Source: Peptoniphilus obesi ph1
GTDB lineage: Bacteria; Bacillota; Clostridia; Tissierellales; Peptoniphilaceae
Assembly (NCBI RefSeq): GCF_000311865.1
Contig: NZ_HE978580.1
Coordinates: 731,980 to 795,979 of the forward strand
DNA: 64,000 nt
Reading direction: 5' to 3'
Within the stretch, counting starts at the first letter, position 1; each line of letters opens with the position of its first letter. Both the position numbers and the translations under genes were made by a program. Positions 27,280 through 37,834 of this stretch are shown one piece after another. Below the pieces are notes generated by a model, which saw nothing but the letters and a program-made list of their open reading frames with translations, was not told the DNA's origin and did no database searches.

Positions 27280-29643
27280 TTAATTAAAATTTTGTTCTGT
27301 TCTAGCTATTATTTCATCTTGAAGTGGTTTATCAATGTTATTGAAATAATCACTATATCCAGCAACTCTTACTATTAAGTTTTTATAATTTTCTGGATGC
27401 TTTTGAGCATCTTTTAAAGTATCTCTGCTTACTACGTTGTATTGGATATGGTGTCCGCCTAGTTTGAAATAGGCTCTTACTAAACCAGTCATACCATCAA
27501 GTCCTTTTTCACCATATGCTACAGATGGAGTGAATTTTTGATTTAGTAGACATCCACCAGTTCTTGATTGGTCCATCTTTGCACAAGATTTAACAACTGC
27601 TGTAGGTCCATTCGTATCTGCTCCCTTTGATGGAGAAATACCATCGTTAAGTGGTAGACCTTTCTTCCTTCCTTGAGGAGATGCTCCCATTACCTTACCA
27701 AAATAAACGTGGCATGTTGTTGGTAGCATATTGATTCTGTGTTTTCCACCTCTGCCAGCAGGTCTTCCTGTTACTTCGTCATAATACATATTGAATATAT
27801 TAGTTGTAATATCATCTGCATAGTCATCATCATTACCAAATTTTGGTGTTCTGTTTGCTACAAGATGATATAAATCGTCATATCCTTCAAAGTTATTATC
27901 TAAGGCTTTTAGAAGATCATCCATAGTGAATTTTTTATTATCAAAGATATTGTATTTAATAGCTGATAAGTCATCAGTTATATTACCAATTCCAACTCCT
28001 TGGATGTAGGTAATATTGTATCTTGCTCCACCTTGGTTGTAGTCCATACCTTTTTTAATACAGTCATCAATAATAACTGATAAGAATGGTGCTTGCATAT
28101 ATTTATAGAATATGCCAGAAATAATATTATTTCCTTTAACTTTTATATCTATAAAGTGATGCATTTGTTTCTTGTAGGCATCTAATAATTCTTCATAGCT
28201 TGTGAAGTCTCTTGGATCTCCAGTTTCTAATCCGATCATCTTGCCAGTATATGGATCTCTTCCGTTATTTAGTGTTATTTCTAATACTTTTGGTAGGTTG
28301 AAATAACCTGTTAAGATGTATGCTTCTTTACCAAAGGCTCCAGTTTCTGTACATCCACTAGTACCTCCGTCTCTTGCATCTTCTATTGATTTTCCAGCAT
28401 TTAGAAGCTCTTTTATGATTGTGTCTGCATTAAATATTGATGGTCTTCCTGTACCTACTCTTGTTACATCCACAGCTCTTCTTAAGAATTTTTCAGGAGT
28501 TTTTTCACTAATTTGAACGTTACTACCTGGTTGTAAAATTCTCATTTCTTCAACTATATCAAGAAGCATGTAGGAAAGATCGTTTACTCCATCTTCTCCA
28601 TTTGTTTTTAGTCCACCTATATTAAGTGTACAGAAATCGAAGTAAGTTCCTGATTCTTCAAGTGTTACTCCAACTTTTGGAGGAGCTGGGTTATTATTAA
28701 ATTTAATCCATAAACATTCTAAGAATTCTTTAGCTTCTTCTTCAGTAATTTTTCCTTCTTCTAAATCTTTTTTATAGAAAGGATACCAATGTTGGTCAAG
28801 TCTACCTGGGTTAAATGAATCCCAAGGGTTCATTTCAGATACTACTCCAAGGTGAACAAACCAATACATTTGTATAGCTTCTCTAAATGTTCTTGGTGCA
28901 TTTTCTGGTACCCAATCACAAATTTCAGCAATTTCTAAGAGTTCTTTCTTTCTTTTTTCATTGCTTTCTTTTTCTGCCATTTGTCTAGCTAGTTCAGCAT
29001 GTCTTTTACCTTGGATTATCATAGCATCGCAAGATATTAACATTGCTCTTAGATTTTCTCTTTTATCAAAGGCTTTTGGATCATTTAAAAAGTCTAGTTT
29101 ATCAATTTCATCTTGAATATCCTTTTTAAAGTCTTTCATACCTTTTTCATAGATTTTTTTGTCTCCTGCTGTATGTCCTGGTCCTCTTTGTTCCATAAAT
29201 TCAGTCCACATTCCAGCTTCATAACAATCAATCCACTCTTGGTCTAATTCATTAAACATCTTATATCTTGTAGATTTATTTTCCCAATAAGGAATGATTT
29301 CTTTTTCTTGAATTTCATATGCTGATTCTGGAACTTTAAATGGTACTTTGTGTCTATCATTCATTAGATGATAGTCTTCTAGGGTGTGACAGCATAGTTC
29401 TGGGAAAGTTGATGTTGCAAGTGGTGCTTCTCCTCTTTCTCCAACAATTAATTCATCTTCGCCAATATATAGCGTTTTTTCTTGCATCAATTCTTTAAAA
29501 GAAAGTGCTCTAAGTTCTGGGTATGATACAGATCCTAAATATTTCTTATAAGCTCTTGTTACTATTTGAGCTCTTTCCATTGAAATATATGGAGTTGTAT
29601 TTATACTCTTTTCTTCTAACCTTTTTATTCTATCAGTTTTCAT
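27280..29643 (-). CDS. hypD: Glycyl-radical trans-4-hydroxy-L-proline dehydratase
   Basis: 787-residue glycyl-radical enzyme that dehydrates trans-4-hydroxyproline to pyrroline-5-carboxylate. The thiyl site GTSGCTETG has Cys431 and Glu433, and the radical site RVAGYSDYFNN has Gly762. Compared from memory with Clostridioides difficile HypD (789 residues), sequence runs throughout in step with a constant offset of three, including TEFMEQRxPGHT, the MNxWDxF region and LTGYxNxPKxLELTLNNG. This separates it from pyruvate formate-lyase and choline or glycerol GREs, where these segments differ. Activated by the radical-SAM enzyme encoded immediately upstream. Start ATG follows GGAGTG. The family is oxygen-sensitive. 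Confidence 0.92.
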   Translation of the reverse strand: MKTDRIKRLEEKSINTTPYISMERAQIVTRAYKKYLGSVSYPELRALSFKELMQEKTLYIGEDELIVGERGEAPLATSTFPELCCHTLEDYHLMNDRHKVPFKVPESAYEIQEKEIIPYWENKSTRYKMFNELDQEWIDCYEAGMWTEFMEQRGPGHTAGDKKIYEKGMKDFKKDIQDEIDKLDFLNDPKAFDKRENLRAMLISCDAMIIQGKRHAELARQMAEKESNEKRKKELLEIAEICDWVPENAPRTFREAIQMYWFVHLGVVSEMNPWDSFNPGRLDQHWYPFYKKDLEEGKITEEEAKEFLECLWIKFNNNPAPPKVGVTLEESGTYFDFCTLNIGGLKTNGEDGVNDLSYMLLDIVEEMRILQPGSNVQISEKTPEKFLRRAVDVTRVGTGRPSIFNADTIIKELLNAGKSIEDARDGGTSGCTETGAFGKEAYILTGYFNLPKVLEITLNNGRDPYTGKMIGLETGDPRDFTSYEELLDAYKKQMHHFIDIKVKGNNIISGIFYKYMQAPFLSVIIDDCIKKGMDYNQGGARYNITYIQGVGIGNITDDLSAIKYNIFDNKKFTMDDLLKALDNNFEGYDDLYHLVANRTPKFGNDDDYADDITTNIFNMYYDEVTGRPAGRGGKHRINMLPTTCHVYFGKVMGASPQGRKKGLPLNDGISPSKGADTNGPTAVVKSCAKMDQSRTGGCLLNQKFTPSVAYGEKGLDGMTGLVRAYFKLGGHHIQYNVVSRDTLKDAQKHPENYKNLIVRVAGYSDYFNNIDKPLQDEIIARTEQNFN

Positions 29644-29653
29644 ATAATCACTC

Positions 29654-30579
29654 CTACCCCCCTATAACAGTTAAATATTTGTTTCTTTCGAATTTTGCTT
29701 TTATGTCTTTTAATTTATTATCATCAGGTTTTTCTTCACCACTCATTTTATATTCTAAATTTAATCTTTGGTATTTTTCTCTACCCATTTTGTGGTAAGG
29801 AAGAAGATTTACCTGTTGTATGTTTTTTAAATCCTTTATAAAATCAAGTATTAAATCTATATCTTGGTCGCTATCGTTAATTCCTTCTAACAATATTAAC
29901 CTTAAAAAGATTTTTCCTTTTTTCCTTCTAATTCTTGGTCTAATTTTTTTAGATTATCAAGTATAAGACCATTATCAAGTCCTGTATACTTTTTATGTTT
30001 TTCTCTATCCATCATTTTTAAATCATATAGATAGTAGTCTACATAATCTGTAGTTTTTTGTATGTTTTCCCAAAAAGTCATTCCACTTGTATCAACTGCT
30101 ACGCTTATATCTTTATTTTTTGATTCTTTTATAAGCTCTAGTAAAAATTCAGTTTGGTTAAATGGTTCTCCTCCTGAAAATGTAACTCCACCTTCTGTGG
30201 TTTCGTAAAAGACTTTATCTTTTTCTATTTCCTTCATAACTTCTTCAAGACTTTTTACTTCTCCAACAATTTCTATTGCATCAGTTGGACAATAATATGC
30301 ACATTGTCCTTCAAAGTTACACTTATTTTTAAGATATATAAGCTCTTTTTCATTTTTTATTTTAAAAGCTGAGTTAGGGCAAACTTCAACGCATTTACCA
30401 CATAGAGTACATTTACTAGAGTTAATCATCAATTGAACTTTATTAGAAAGGCTTTCTGGATTATGACACCACCAGCATCTCAAAGGACAACCTTTAAAAA
30501 ATACTGTTGTTCTTATTCCTGGTCCGTCATGTATAGAAAATTTTTGTATATTAAATATTGTTCCTTGCATTTTTTCCAT
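29654..30579 (-). CDS. hypE: Radical-SAM glycyl-radical activase (HypE-like), -1 frameshift inside
   Basis: Installs the glycyl radical on HypD using S-adenosylmethionine. Frame 1 (from 30579) gives residues 1-221: the cluster motif CPLRCWWC (Cys31, 35, 38), two ferredoxin-like cysteine sets (57-67 and 87-97), and TFSGGEPF. It then stops at TAA (29902-29904). The missing C-terminus (KIFLRLILLEGINDS... to LTVIGG, stop at 29654) continues in the -1 frame. Joining them after codon 221 gives about 308 residues, a normal activase length. The switch falls exactly at A_AAA_AAG, so it is either programmed -1 frameshifting, a one-base loss in a homopolymer, or a sequencing error. Start follows AAGGAG. 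Confidence 0.85.
29917..29923 (-). other. Slippery heptamer A_AAA_AAG in activase gene
   Basis: On the minus strand codons 219-221 read GGA AAA AAG, giving the classical -1 heptamer in the correct phase (the heptamer used by E. coli dnaX). A purine-rich GAAGGA lies directly upstream. No strong downstream stem-loop is visible, which weakens the programmed-shift reading. Confidence 0.6.
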
Positions 30580-33280: not shown

Positions 33281-33305
33281 AAAAAAAAAGACCCTTAGGT
33301 CTTTT
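33281..33305 (-). terminator. Terminator of the gyrA-sigB-like run
   Basis: Stem 33298-33305 with 33286-33293, CTTA loop, followed on the minus strand by a run of T. It overlaps the stop codon of the PsiE-like gene and marks the end of the long leftward cluster from dnaA. Confidence 0.85.
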
Positions 33306-33939
33306 AATCTTTTGATGATACGGCAACTTCTTCTATAAGTCCACCATTAATTTTTATTATTGTATATATATACTTATCATCTTCTATCAGTTCATCTTCT
33401 TTTAAATCTCTAGCTTCATTTTCAAATAGATTAGAAACAAGTCCACCCAATGTGTGGAATCCCTTATCATCTATTTGCAAATTGTAAAGCATATTTATTT
33501 CTTCAATTTTTGATACTGCAGAAAATATTTTATTACTATCTTGATTTAAGTATTCTACAGTTGAACTTTTTAATAAAAACTTTCTTGTTATAAATAATAT
33601 GGTTATAGCTATTACTCCTATTAATATATCTGTCATACTTTGTGATTGGATAAGTAGTTTTCTAGATATAACAAGTGTGATTAAATAAACAATTGTAGAA
33701 TCTGTTTGTGTTACTAAAAGTAGTATAAACTCCATGGCTATAACTAGCATCATAATATGTGCTAACAAATCATTAAATAGCTTTATTGAGACCTCTTTTG
33801 ATGATCCAAGTATATCTATATAATAATGTATTATATCTGGAATTGATATTAATATTGCTATTATAAGCATGATTGATATTAGGATTTCAAATAAATGTAT
33901 TAATTTACTTAGGAATAGCAGGTACTTTTTTCTATTCAT
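33304..33939 (-). CDS. PsiE-like membrane protein with CorC/HlyC-type C-terminal domain
   Basis: 211 residues. Four hydrophobic segments in residues about 10-130 (ILISIMLIIAILISIPDIIHYYIDIL, HIMMLVIAMEFILLLV, VYLITLVISRKLLI, ILIGVIAITILFITRKFLL) resemble the phosphate-starvation PsiE fold. The C-terminus (about 155-208: YNLQIDDKGFHTLGGLVSNLFE...IIKINGGLIEEVAVS) looks like the transporter-associated domain found at the end of CorC/HlyC proteins. Function unknown. It begins 12 bases after the sigma-factor gene, behind AAAGGAGAAG, and is the last gene before the terminator, so may be a target or a modulator of that system. Confidence 0.7.
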   Translation of the reverse strand: MNRKKYLLFLSKLIHLFEILISIMLIIAILISIPDIIHYYIDILGSSKEVSIKLFNDLLAHIMMLVIAMEFILLLVTQTDSTIVYLITLVISRKLLIQSQSMTDILIGVIAITILFITRKFLLKSSTVEYLNQDSNKIFSAVSKIEEINMLYNLQIDDKGFHTLGGLVSNLFENEARDLKEDELIEDDKYIYTIIKINGGLIEEVAVSSKD

Positions 33940-33950
33940 CTTCTTCTCCT

Positions 33951-34739
33951 TTATCCTTCCAAAGATCTTTTCATTTCCTTTCTCATTTTTGTAAGCACTA
34001 TTTTTTCTATTCTAGATACTGTCATCTGAGATATATCAAGTTTTTCTGCTATTGATATCTGTGTGCTGTTATTGAAATATCTTTCGATTAATATTGTTTT
34101 TTCTACTTCATTAAGATTAGCCATAGATTTTTGTAGAAATTCTTTTAATTCAATTTTATCGAAGTATTTTTCTTCTACTCCTATTAAATCCCCTAGATTA
34201 ATTTCTTTATCTTCTCCATTAAGATCATAAACAACATCTAATGATTGAGGTGAATATACTTTTGATGCTTCTAGAGTTTCTAGAATTTCTTCTGGACTTG
34301 TGTTTAAATATTCTGCTATTTCATTTACTGTCGGTGATTTTTGTTGGGTTTGAGATAAATGAATTCTTGCATTATTGATTTTTTTTGAAAGATCTTGAAT
34401 TCTTCTTGGAACTCTAATTGTCCAACCCTTATCTCTGAAGTATTTTTTTATTTCACCTATTATAGTCGGAGTAGCAAAAGAAGAAAATTCATAACCTTTT
34501 GACAGATCGTATCTTTCAATTGCATATATTAAACCAATTGATGCTACTTGGTATATGTCATCATAGTCTATACCTCTTCCTGCATATTTTTTAGATAATA
34601 TTTCTGCTATATATAGGTGCTCTTTTATTAAAATATCTCTTATTTCATTGTCTTTTGTCTCAGCATATTCTTTGAAGAGTTCTTTTCTTTCTTCCTTGCT
34701 AAGTTTTCTGTTTAAACTATGATATTGTTCTAAGTTCAT
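33951..34739 (-). CDS. SigB/SigF-type RNA polymerase sigma factor
   Basis: 262-residue group-3 sigma-70 factor. Region 2: LIKEHLYIAEILSKKYAGRGIDYDDIYQVASIGLIYAIERYD and FSSFATPTIIGEIKKYFRDKGWTIRVPRRIQDL; region 3: TVNEIAEYLNTSPEEILETLEA; region 4.2: TQISIAEKLDISQMTVSRIEKIVL. The IRVPR segment and length fit the SigB/SigF/SigG class controlled by partner switching. It follows an anti-anti-sigma and an anti-sigma gene in the order rsbV-rsbW-sigB (or spoIIAA-AB-AC). General stress response is the likelier role because no sporulation genes are seen here. Confidence 0.9.
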   Translation of the reverse strand: MNLEQYHSLNRKLSKEERKELFKEYAETKDNEIRDILIKEHLYIAEILSKKYAGRGIDYDDIYQVASIGLIYAIERYDLSKGYEFSSFATPTIIGEIKKYFRDKGWTIRVPRRIQDLSKKINNARIHLSQTQQKSPTVNEIAEYLNTSPEEILETLEASKVYSPQSLDVVYDLNGEDKEINLGDLIGVEEKYFDKIELKEFLQKSMANLNEVEKTILIERYFNNSTQISIAEKLDISQMTVSRIEKIVLTKMRKEMKRSLEG

Positions 34740-34749
34740 TTTATCTTTC

Positions 34750-35097
34750 CTATAATTCTACTATTATTGATAATTTTTCATCTTCCAGACTACTTTTGTC
34801 TACCAAGCAATCAATAATTGTCAATGATAGTGATAGTTCGTCATCTTCGTCTATATCTTTTTTACAAATTTTTCCTATTTCAATTTCAAATTTGTCTTCA
34901 TCAATGCAAAATTTCACATCAATTTCGTCTTCACATTTTAATTTTAAAGCAATGTTTAAACATTCAGAAAGTGCAATTTTAAAATCTTCTATTTTTTCTA
35001 TATCAAAATCTAGATTTGTAAGCAGTCCAGATAAAAATAATCTTATTGAAGAAAAATATTTTGCATTTGATGGAATTTTTAGTTCTATAATCTCCAT
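34750..35097 (-). CDS. RsbW/SpoIIAB-like anti-sigma factor without ATP-binding motifs
   Basis: 115 residues aligned by order and by KIPSNAKYFSSIRLFLSGLLTNLDFDIEKIEDFKIALSECLNIAL to the GHKL-fold anti-sigma kinases. The kinase motifs are lost: the N-box should have Asn four residues after Glu45 but position 49 is Ile; the DNGxG box is replaced around 73-80 (EIGKICKK); and the GLGL segment reads LSLSL (about 88-92). Therefore ATP binding and phosphorylation of the RsbV-like partner are unlikely. It may still bind the sigma factor. One base separates it from the upstream gene. Confidence 0.8.
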   Translation of the reverse strand: MEIIELKIPSNAKYFSSIRLFLSGLLTNLDFDIEKIEDFKIALSECLNIALKLKCEDEIDVKFCIDEDKFEIEIGKICKKDIDEDDELSLSLTIIDCLVDKSSLEDEKLSIIVEL

Positions 35098-35098
35098 A

Positions 35099-35404
35099 TT
35101 AATCCCTCATTTCAAAAATACTATCTAGTTTTGTTATAGAAAATAACTTCATAATATTCTTTTTAATATTTACTAGGGCTATTTTATGATCATTTTTTTC
35201 TATTTCATTCAATATATACATTAAAGCTCCTAAACCTGTTGAATCAATATATTCAAGTTCTTTTCCATCTATTAAAATATTCTTTTTATATTCATTATAT
35301 TTATTTAATGTATCTTTTTTAAAATCTTCTGTTGTGTAAAGATCAAGTTCACCTTTTGGATATATAACAAGTTCATCTTTATTTTCATAAGAAACTTCAA
35401 ACAT
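35099..35404 (-). CDS. STAS-domain anti-anti-sigma factor (RsbV/SpoIIAA-like)
   Basis: 101-residue STAS domain: LVIYPKGELDLYTTEDFKKD, then the loop EYIDSTGLGALMYIL with phosphorylatable Ser55, as in RsbV. In partner switching the unphosphorylated form sequesters the anti-sigma factor. Here the Ser is kept although the cognate kinase next door looks dead. It starts behind AGGAGGATT, ten bases after gyrA, so probably shares the gyrase transcript. Confidence 0.9.
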   Translation of the reverse strand: MFEVSYENKDELVIYPKGELDLYTTEDFKKDTLNKYNEYKKNILIDGKELEYIDSTGLGALMYILNEIEKNDHKIALVNIKKNIMKLFSITKLDSIFEMRD

Positions 35405-35413
35405 AGAATCCTC

Positions 35414-37834
35414 CTAGTCTCCAATATACTTAGCAATAGCTACTACTTTTGAATCTTTTATATTCATAAGTTTAACTCCTGATGTAGCTCTTCCCATTTT
35501 TGATATTTGATCAACTCTTATTCTTATTATGATTCCACCTGATGTAATAATCATAATGTCATCATCTTTATCTACTACCTTAGCTGCTACAAGATTGCCA
35601 GTTTTCTTATTTGGTCTGTAGGTAATTATTCCTGAACCGGCTCTTCCTTGGGTCCTATATTCTTCAAGTGCTGTTATTTTTCCAAATCCTCCTTCTGATA
35701 TTACTAAGAAGTATTTATTATCTTCAGCTATATCACAGCCTACAAGCTCATCATCACTATCAAGTTTTATAGCTGTAACACCCATGGAATTTCTTCCTGT
35801 GCTTCTTACATCTTTTTCAGAGAACCTAATACTTTTACCTTTTTTAGTTGCAAGTATTAAATCTTCTTCTCCATTTGTAAGTCTTGATGATATTATTCTA
35901 TCACCTTCTTTAAGTTTCATAGAAATAATACCATTTTTTCTTATATTTTTATAATCTTCAAAAGATGTTTTCTTAACTATTCCATTTTTAGTTGCCATCA
36001 ATACATAAAGATTTGGATCAAAATCTTTTACATGTATAATTGATTCTATTTGCTCATCTGATGATAAGTTTAATAAATTAACAACCGCCATTCCCCTAGC
36101 TTGCCTTGAACTTTCTGGTATTTCATAAGCTTTTAGAGTGTAAACTTTTCCAAGATTTGTGAAAAATAATATTGAATCATGGCTTGATGTTACAAATAAA
36201 TCACATACAAAGTCCCCATCTTTTGTTGACAAGGCTTGAATTCCTCTTCCACCTCTTTTTTGAGGTTTATATGTTCCTTCTGGCATTCTTTTTATATAAC
36301 CTGATTTTGTAAGTGTTACTACAACATCTTCTTCTTTTATTACATCTTCTATATCTATTTCTGATTCAGATGGTCTTATAACAGTTCTTCTTAAATCTGA
36401 ATACTTATCTTTTATTTCATTTAGTTCATCTTTAATTATGCTCATAAGTAGACCATGATCTTCTAATATACTTCTAAGATATTTTATTGTTTCTTCTAGT
36501 TCTTTAAATTCATCTTCTAGTTTTTCTCTTTCCAAACCAGTTAATCTTTTAATTCTCATATCAAGAATTGCTTGGCCTTGGATATCTGTTAAACCAAATT
36601 CTTCAGTAAATTTTTGTTTTGCATCTTTATCATCTTGAGATGATCTTACAATTTTAATTATTCTGTCTATATTATCAATTGCAACTAAAAGACCTTCAAC
36701 TATATGAGCTCTTTTTTCTGATTTATCAAGATCAAATTTTGTTCTTCTTGTTACTACTTCTATTTGATGATCAACATAGTGAGATATTAATTTTTTAAGG
36801 CTTAATACTTTCGGAACACCATTAACTAGTGCAAGATTTATTACACCAAATGTTATTTGCATTTGAGTTTCTTTATATAATTTATTTAAAACTATATTAG
36901 CATGTGCATCTTTTTTTAAATCAATTACAATTCTAATTCCTTTTCTTGTTGATTCATCTCTAATTGAACTTATTCCATCAATTACCTTATCTCTAACAAG
37001 TTGAGCAATTTTTATAACCAAGTTTGATTTATTTACTTGGTAAGGAATTTCTTTTATTATTATTCTTTGTCTTTTCTTAAATTCTTCAATTTCTGCAACT
37101 GCTCTTATTTGGATTTTACCCCTGCCTGTTTCATAGGCTTTTTTTATTCCTTGCTTGCCCATTATATATGCGCCTGTTGGAAAATCTGGTCCTTTTATAT
37201 ATTGCATCAATTCTTCAGTGCTTATATCTTCGTTGTCTATGTAGGCATTTACTCCTTCAATTACCTCTTTTAAATTGTGAGGAGGCATATTTGTTGCCAT
37301 ACCTACTGCAATACCAGCAGATCCATTTACAAGTAAATTTGGAAATCTTGAAGGTAGTACTGTTGGTTCAAAATCTTCTTCATCAAAGTTTGGAACCATA
37401 TCAACGGTATCTTTATTTATATCCCTTAACATTTCAAGACATAGTCTTGTCATCTTAAGCTCTGTATAACGCATGGCTGCTGCTCCATAGCCATCAATAT
37501 TACCAAAGTTACCTTGACCATCAACAAGAGGATATCTTGTATTAAATGGTTGAGCAAGCCTTACTGTAGCATCATATATTGAGGAGTCACCATGAGGGTG
37601 AAATTTACTCATTACATCTCCTACAAGTCTTGCAGATTTTCTATAAGGTCCTCCTGGGTTAAGTCCTACAACCTGCATACCATATATTATTCTTCTATGT
37701 ACAGGTTTTAGACCATCTCGTACATCTGGAAGTGCACGAGATACAATTACACTCATGGAATAATCAAGATAAGAATCTCTCATCTTTTTGGAAAGATTTA
37801 CATTTACTATTCCACTGTTATTAAATTCGTCCAT
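35414..37834 (-). CDS. gyrA: DNA gyrase subunit A
   Basis: 806-residue breakage-reunion subunit of gyrase. DYSMSVIVSRALPDVRDGLKPVHRRI, catalytic Tyr123 in AAMRYTELKM, and a C-terminal wrapping domain with the GyrA-box-like QKRGGRGIQAL (QRRGGKG in E. coli). The quinolone-determining positions equivalent to E. coli Ser83 and Asp87 are Ser84 and Asp88, the susceptible residues. Starts behind GGAGGAAG nine bases after gyrB. Downstream genes are the sigma-factor partner-switch set. Confidence 0.97.
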   Translation of the reverse strand: MDEFNNSGIVNVNLSKKMRDSYLDYSMSVIVSRALPDVRDGLKPVHRRIIYGMQVVGLNPGGPYRKSARLVGDVMSKFHPHGDSSIYDATVRLAQPFNTRYPLVDGQGNFGNIDGYGAAAMRYTELKMTRLCLEMLRDINKDTVDMVPNFDEEDFEPTVLPSRFPNLLVNGSAGIAVGMATNMPPHNLKEVIEGVNAYIDNEDISTEELMQYIKGPDFPTGAYIMGKQGIKKAYETGRGKIQIRAVAEIEEFKKRQRIIIKEIPYQVNKSNLVIKIAQLVRDKVIDGISSIRDESTRKGIRIVIDLKKDAHANIVLNKLYKETQMQITFGVINLALVNGVPKVLSLKKLISHYVDHQIEVVTRRTKFDLDKSEKRAHIVEGLLVAIDNIDRIIKIVRSSQDDKDAKQKFTEEFGLTDIQGQAILDMRIKRLTGLEREKLEDEFKELEETIKYLRSILEDHGLLMSIIKDELNEIKDKYSDLRRTVIRPSESEIDIEDVIKEEDVVVTLTKSGYIKRMPEGTYKPQKRGGRGIQALSTKDGDFVCDLFVTSSHDSILFFTNLGKVYTLKAYEIPESSRQARGMAVVNLLNLSSDEQIESIIHVKDFDPNLYVLMATKNGIVKKTSFEDYKNIRKNGIISMKLKEGDRIISSRLTNGEEDLILATKKGKSIRFSEKDVRSTGRNSMGVTAIKLDSDDELVGCDIAEDNKYFLVISEGGFGKITALEEYRTQGRAGSGIITYRPNKKTGNLVAAKVVDKDDDIMIITSGGIIIRIRVDQISKMGRATSGVKLMNIKDSKVVAIAKYIGD

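Follow-up and report, generated by a model that had tools for sequence, protein, structure and literature searches.

In the textbook partner switch, the clamp that binds the sigma factor and the kinase that phosphorylates its antagonist are one and the same protein, and sigma binding depends on adenine nucleotide. Positions 34750 to 35404 of the stretch analysed here (64,000 nucleotides from Peptoniphilus obesi ph1, hereafter the window) raise the question of how such a switch might operate when its RsbW-like member has lost its ATP site. A preliminary description of the locus had offered two answers: either another kinase phosphorylates Ser55 of the RsbV-like partner, or the system works by ATP-independent binding only. 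The open reading frames are as that description gave them, and are listed here with their neighbours and with two further genes of the same genome (G000).

33304-33939, minus strand: membrane protein with a C-terminal CorC_HlyC domain, 211 residues (Pfam CorC_HlyC, 6e-7)

33951-34739, minus strand: SigB/SigF/SigG-type sigma factor, presumed target of W, 262 residues (TIGR02980, 260 bits, above the cut-off)

34750-35097, minus strand: W, putative RsbW-like anti-sigma factor without an ATP site, 115 residues (NCBIfam RsbW, 1.2e-14, N-terminal half)

35099-35404, minus strand: STAS anti-sigma antagonist, RsbV-like, 101 residues (Pfam STAS, 3.7e-17)

35414-37834, minus strand: gyrA, immediately upstream of the STAS gene, with a gap of 9 nt

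G000:C4:113987-114373, minus strand, outside the window: K, single-domain GHKL/HATPase, 130 residues, with the motifs ELMVNSLFHGN, DEGNG and GRGL

G000:C3, about 289.3 kb: PAS-SpoIIE PP2C phosphatase, 372 residues (PF07228, 8.6e-30)

The run gyrA, STAS, W, sigma, CorC_HlyC lies entirely on the minus strand, its genes separated by 1 to 11 nt, and the W gene has the placement of an rsbW, between rsbV-like and sigB-like genes. The association with gyrA is common, as this gene falls within the fetched stretch at 166 of 191 module loci. The sigma gene is followed in the run by that of the CorC_HlyC membrane protein, which accompanies the module at many family loci and might serve the switch as a sensor or target. 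In a scan of the whole window, SigB-like promoters did not clearly outnumber those in shuffled sequence.

The ATP site of W was assessed by motif scoring on an alignment of W proteins, with the intact RsbW of C. difficile as reference and 73 distinct sequences from the family of the window's genome. The family sample covers 130 genomes in 39 genera and most likely represents Peptoniphilaceae; a query with a single protein placed two Anaerococcus records among the relatives. In the W of the window, the N-box Asn, the G1 motif and the G2 motif are all absent. Across the family, G1 (DxG) and G2 (GxG) are absent from 73/73 sequences and the N-box Asn from 71/73, and 134 of 150 distinct W sequences have none of the three. 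There is an Asn nearby in the window's W, N48, and it stands at +3 from E45, with the N-box position at +4. Two other residues have been kept without exception, namely R19 and E45, each present in 150/150 distinct W sequences including 73/73 from the family. These correspond to Arg20 and Glu46 of SpoIIAB, in which Arg20 serves in binding both sigma and the antagonist, Glu46 is the catalytic base and Asn50 chelates Mg (PMC10345196). The statement in the preliminary description that W lacks all ATP-binding motifs thus stands for the N-box Asn, G1 and G2, but has to be qualified for the Glu46 equivalent, which remains.

Judged by these motifs, W can no longer bind ATP, and it lacks what it would need to be itself the kinase of its antagonist. 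RsbW models match W at residues 2-75 only, with hmmscan scores of 54.1 and 52.0 bits that fall below both curated cut-offs (145 bits for NF003144, 155 bits for TIGR01924). As both the score and the ATP motifs fall short of RsbW, annotation of W as an RsbW kinase is inappropriate. A structure predicted by AlphaFold2 from an alignment of only three sequences (pLDDT 64) was searched with Foldseek, and this low-confidence model retrieved RsbW (6m36) first, at an E value of 5.5e-5, and UsfX (8jzt) next, with TM scores of 0.4-0.5.

A frameshift or misread of W was considered and ruled out, as homologues of about the same short length occur in 129/130 family genomes and dN/dS between close pairs is 0.03-0.18, which indicates purifying selection. 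This selection, together with retention of the R19 and E45 equivalents, argues that W is neither a misread nor a pseudogene. It had been suggested that homologues with intact motifs in relatives would point to a misread here. Such homologues do exist, in families f8, f11 and f13 of the order and in C. difficile, but they do not carry that implication; the shared absence of G1 and G2 from every W sequence of the window's family speaks for gradual loss.

If W does not phosphorylate the STAS protein, is there still a phosphorylation cycle? The acceptor Ser55 is kept, as previously described, and sits in the motif YIDSTGLG, and a Ser is found at this position in 116/116 distinct STAS homologues. 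In C. difficile, the RsbV protein is phosphorylated at Ser57 within the matching motif, YIDpSTGLG (PMC8730811). In the window's genome a single STAS protein exceeds the cut-off, and exactly one per genome is found in 129/130 members of the family, with a PP2C over the cut-off in 128/130. A STAS protein with an invariant acceptor Ser and a SpoIIE-type phosphatase is the pairing seen in SigB-type systems. One could instead imagine that W, the STAS protein and the sigma factor switch through affinity or concentration, with Ser55 never phosphorylated; the absence of an ATP site from W itself would suit this, and mycobacteria do have an antagonist, RsfA, that is under redox control (PMC7693655). 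We consider it very unlikely, because it leaves unexplained an invariant Ser and the retention, in nearly all genomes, of both a SpoIIE-type PP2C and an ATP-competent GHKL protein. With these three retained together, a phosphorylation cycle is far likelier than binding alone, and the second of the two original answers is disfavoured.

The first answer fares better. Searching the window's genome for another RsbW/RsbT-like kinase, as had been proposed, points to K, the one single-domain HATPase in that genome with all motifs. K is present in 129/130 family genomes. Order-wide, both W and K are found in 244/249 genomes; the five without K by search may reflect assembly gaps. In two of the K-less genomes (G199, G200), W is degenerate and the Ser is kept, and SpoIIAB is the only clear ATP-competent single-domain HATPase. 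All of ExxxNxxxH, DxGxG and GxG are kept by K in 121/121 distinct sequences sampled. By contrast, the column of SpoIIAB Arg20 holds Arg in 57/57 sampled W, RsbW and SpoIIAB sequences versus only 6/46 for K. At the level of sequence motifs, then, the loss is reciprocal, affecting the ATP site in W and the sigma-binding Arg in K.

We also asked how far K extends and where it belongs. In a class sample of 391 genomes, K was matched in 86 at E <= 1e-16, and scores separate the groups, at 102 bits or less outside the order and 121 bits or more for order members. A recent duplication of W as the origin of K was rejected, since the branch between K and the W/RsbW/SpoIIAB sequences has support values of 0.997 (W side) and 0.85 (K side). 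This branch leaves the K proteins of the order together with those encoded in operons in other Clostridia (see below), although nodes on their side are only moderately or weakly supported and the alignment is short. SpoIIAB proteins of spore-forming relatives have intact motifs and form their own clade.

K and the module are unlinked in the window's genome, and in the window's genus K adjoins a radical SAM protein. Its neighbours across 100 stretches from the order include a TypA/BipA-like GTPase in 60, an EngB-like protein in 33 and a Lon-like protein in 27. This surrounding of typA, engB and lon would suit a different reading, in which a kinase of another type, such as the Hanks-type PASTA kinase PrkC, phosphorylates Ser55 and the substrate of K is unrelated; a PrkC-like kinase and a PrpC-like phosphatase are indeed encoded in the window's genome (L007). 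Outside the order, however, the picture is different. We fetched 28 weaker K homologues, of which 26 loci were evaluable for W, and at 23 of these the genes run co-directionally as STAS-W-sigma-K with K in fourth place, a few having the STAS gene at the end of the fetched stretch or past it. The three evaluable loci without the operon have the lowest K scores, 76 bits or less; the remaining two of the 28 comprise one sigma-K pair with W beyond the stretch and one locus cut by a contig end. The W proteins of these operons lack the Asn and G1 in 22/22 distinct sequences, and G2 in 20. Besides this linkage, STAS proteins are phosphorylated by kinases of the GHKL class, to which K belongs, and K has a single potential STAS substrate in the genome. 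We therefore regard phosphorylation of Ser55 by a PrkC-type enzyme as unlikely, and favour K, which is ATP-competent, near-universal in the order and operon-linked elsewhere in Clostridia, as the other kinase that had been postulated.

Two related observations were made at other loci. The PASTA kinase and its phosphatase lie in an rlmN-prpC-prkC-like run (L007, G000:C1, about 63-66 kb). At L347 and L348 (G570 and G506), a Clostridia HATPase gene is followed directly by a STAS gene, with W and sigma not in the stretch.

Taken together, the motif, synteny and distribution data probably describe a split partner switch acting on a SigB-type sigma factor, in which W is a nucleotide-independent anti-sigma factor, K phosphorylates the STAS protein and the PP2C dephosphorylates it. 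The binding, kinase and phosphatase activities are all ones that we infer. The part of W surrounding Arg19 would bind either sigma or the STAS protein in its unphosphorylated form, and W would phosphorylate nothing. Ser55 of the STAS protein would be phosphorylated by K. The PAS-SpoIIE PP2C, once activated by its own sensor, would strip the phosphate from the STAS protein, which could then capture W and so free the sigma factor, and K would reset the switch. A rival reading is that W has given up the anti-sigma role and acts as a scaffold or antagonist, with K or another protein holding sigma; M. smegmatis provides a precedent in RsbW3, an RsbW homologue with an antagonist role (PMC7693655). 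Against this, the W gene directly precedes the sigma gene, the Arg with the sigma-binding role in SpoIIAB is invariant in W and rare in K, and the 130 family genomes yielded no further W-like protein (G103 has one split match). Such a role for W is in our view the least probable of the alternatives, marginally behind switching by binding alone.

The closest known parallel to the proposed split switch is the mycobacterial SigF switch, where anti-sigma factor and kinase are likewise two separate HATPase-family proteins. In M. smegmatis, RsbW1 is solely an anti-SigF factor, and RsbW2, which does not bind SigF, is alone in phosphorylating Ser63 of RsfB (PMC7693655). RsbW1 has no kinase activity, as we propose for W. 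In our alignment the N-box Asn, DxG and GLG are missing from UsfX, the M. tuberculosis homologue of RsbW1, just as they are from W. The kinase RsbW2 keeps N, G1 and G2, as does K. By sequence, K has the features expected of the kinase in a split of the mycobacterial kind, being a separate HATPase with these motifs intact and mostly without the sigma-binding Arg. The two systems differ in gene order, antagonist number and phylum, the present one having one STAS protein and a K that is either fourth after sigma (other Clostridia) or unlinked (the window's order). The division of labour itself is thus already known from mycobacteria, and by analogy the clostridial arrangement would be a variant of it.

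Comparison with the SigB switch of Bacillus, Listeria and C. difficile (RsbV, RsbW, SigB and the PP2C RsbU, RsbP or RsbZ) reveals the same STAS-W-sigma gene order, the same acceptor Ser motif and a SpoIIE-class PP2C with an N-terminal sensor. However, RsbW in those species combines the anti-sigma and kinase functions, has an intact ATP site (L350, L351) and measures about 135-160 residues, whereas W has no such site and only 115 residues. The SpoIIAA/SpoIIAB/SigmaF system shares fold and logic with the present one, but SpoIIAB combines the sigma-binding Arg20 and an ATP-dependent kinase, so that sigma binding and phosphorylation reside in one protein; here they appear to be distributed over two.

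Because K also occurs in genomes with an intact W (G147, G148, G152 and G157), it did not arise as a replacement for W, and there is no strict anti-correlation between K and intact W in the order, as the 244 K-bearing genomes include ones with intact W. Intact W proteins are found in C. difficile, Acetoanaerobium and Listeria, and within the order in families f8 (2/3), f11 and f13. The other families present intermediate states: f15, f16 and most of f18 have W without G1 and G2 but with the Asn, and f12 has a half-lost site. In the window's family the ATP site is almost fully lost. This gradation fits a scenario in which the ATP site of W came under relaxed selection once K was available. In f12, the two half-lost proteins (L229 and L232, from G156 and G155) belong to a single genus, one W having the Asn without the G1 Asp and the other the Asp without the Asn, as if the site were decaying now.

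On a broader scale, we tentatively suggest, at slightly less than an even chance, that an operon of STAS protein, ATP-free anti-sigma factor, SigB-like sigma factor and dedicated kinase is a widespread Clostridia architecture, with sigma binding independent of ATP and ADP, and that in the window's order K has become unlinked and W is at varied stages of decay. In such a system K and W would compete for the unphosphorylated STAS protein, and this competition, not a self-terminating W-STAS complex, would set the switch.

If the split holds, a large group of anaerobes apparently divides between two proteins the jobs that the textbook switch gives to one. A literature search that covered few subscription journals found neither the four-gene operon in Clostridia nor anti-sigma factors in Peptoniphilaceae, nor published work on anti-sigma control in this group at large. 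Generic names such as 'ATP-binding protein' conceal the split, and the C. difficile record gives that name to an intact W. As each genome has one STAS protein, one anti-sigma factor, one kinase and one phosphatase, the wiring can be tested without interference from paralogues. The order also spans intact to lost ATP sites, so the dismantling of a bifunctional signalling enzyme can be studied within it.

Elsewhere in the window, a glycyl-radical-enzyme activase (29654-30579, minus strand) seems to be divided between two frames (30579-29902 and 29893-29654), suggesting a frameshift or an error in sequencing; it adjoins a pyruvate-formate-lyase-like gene at 27280-29643.
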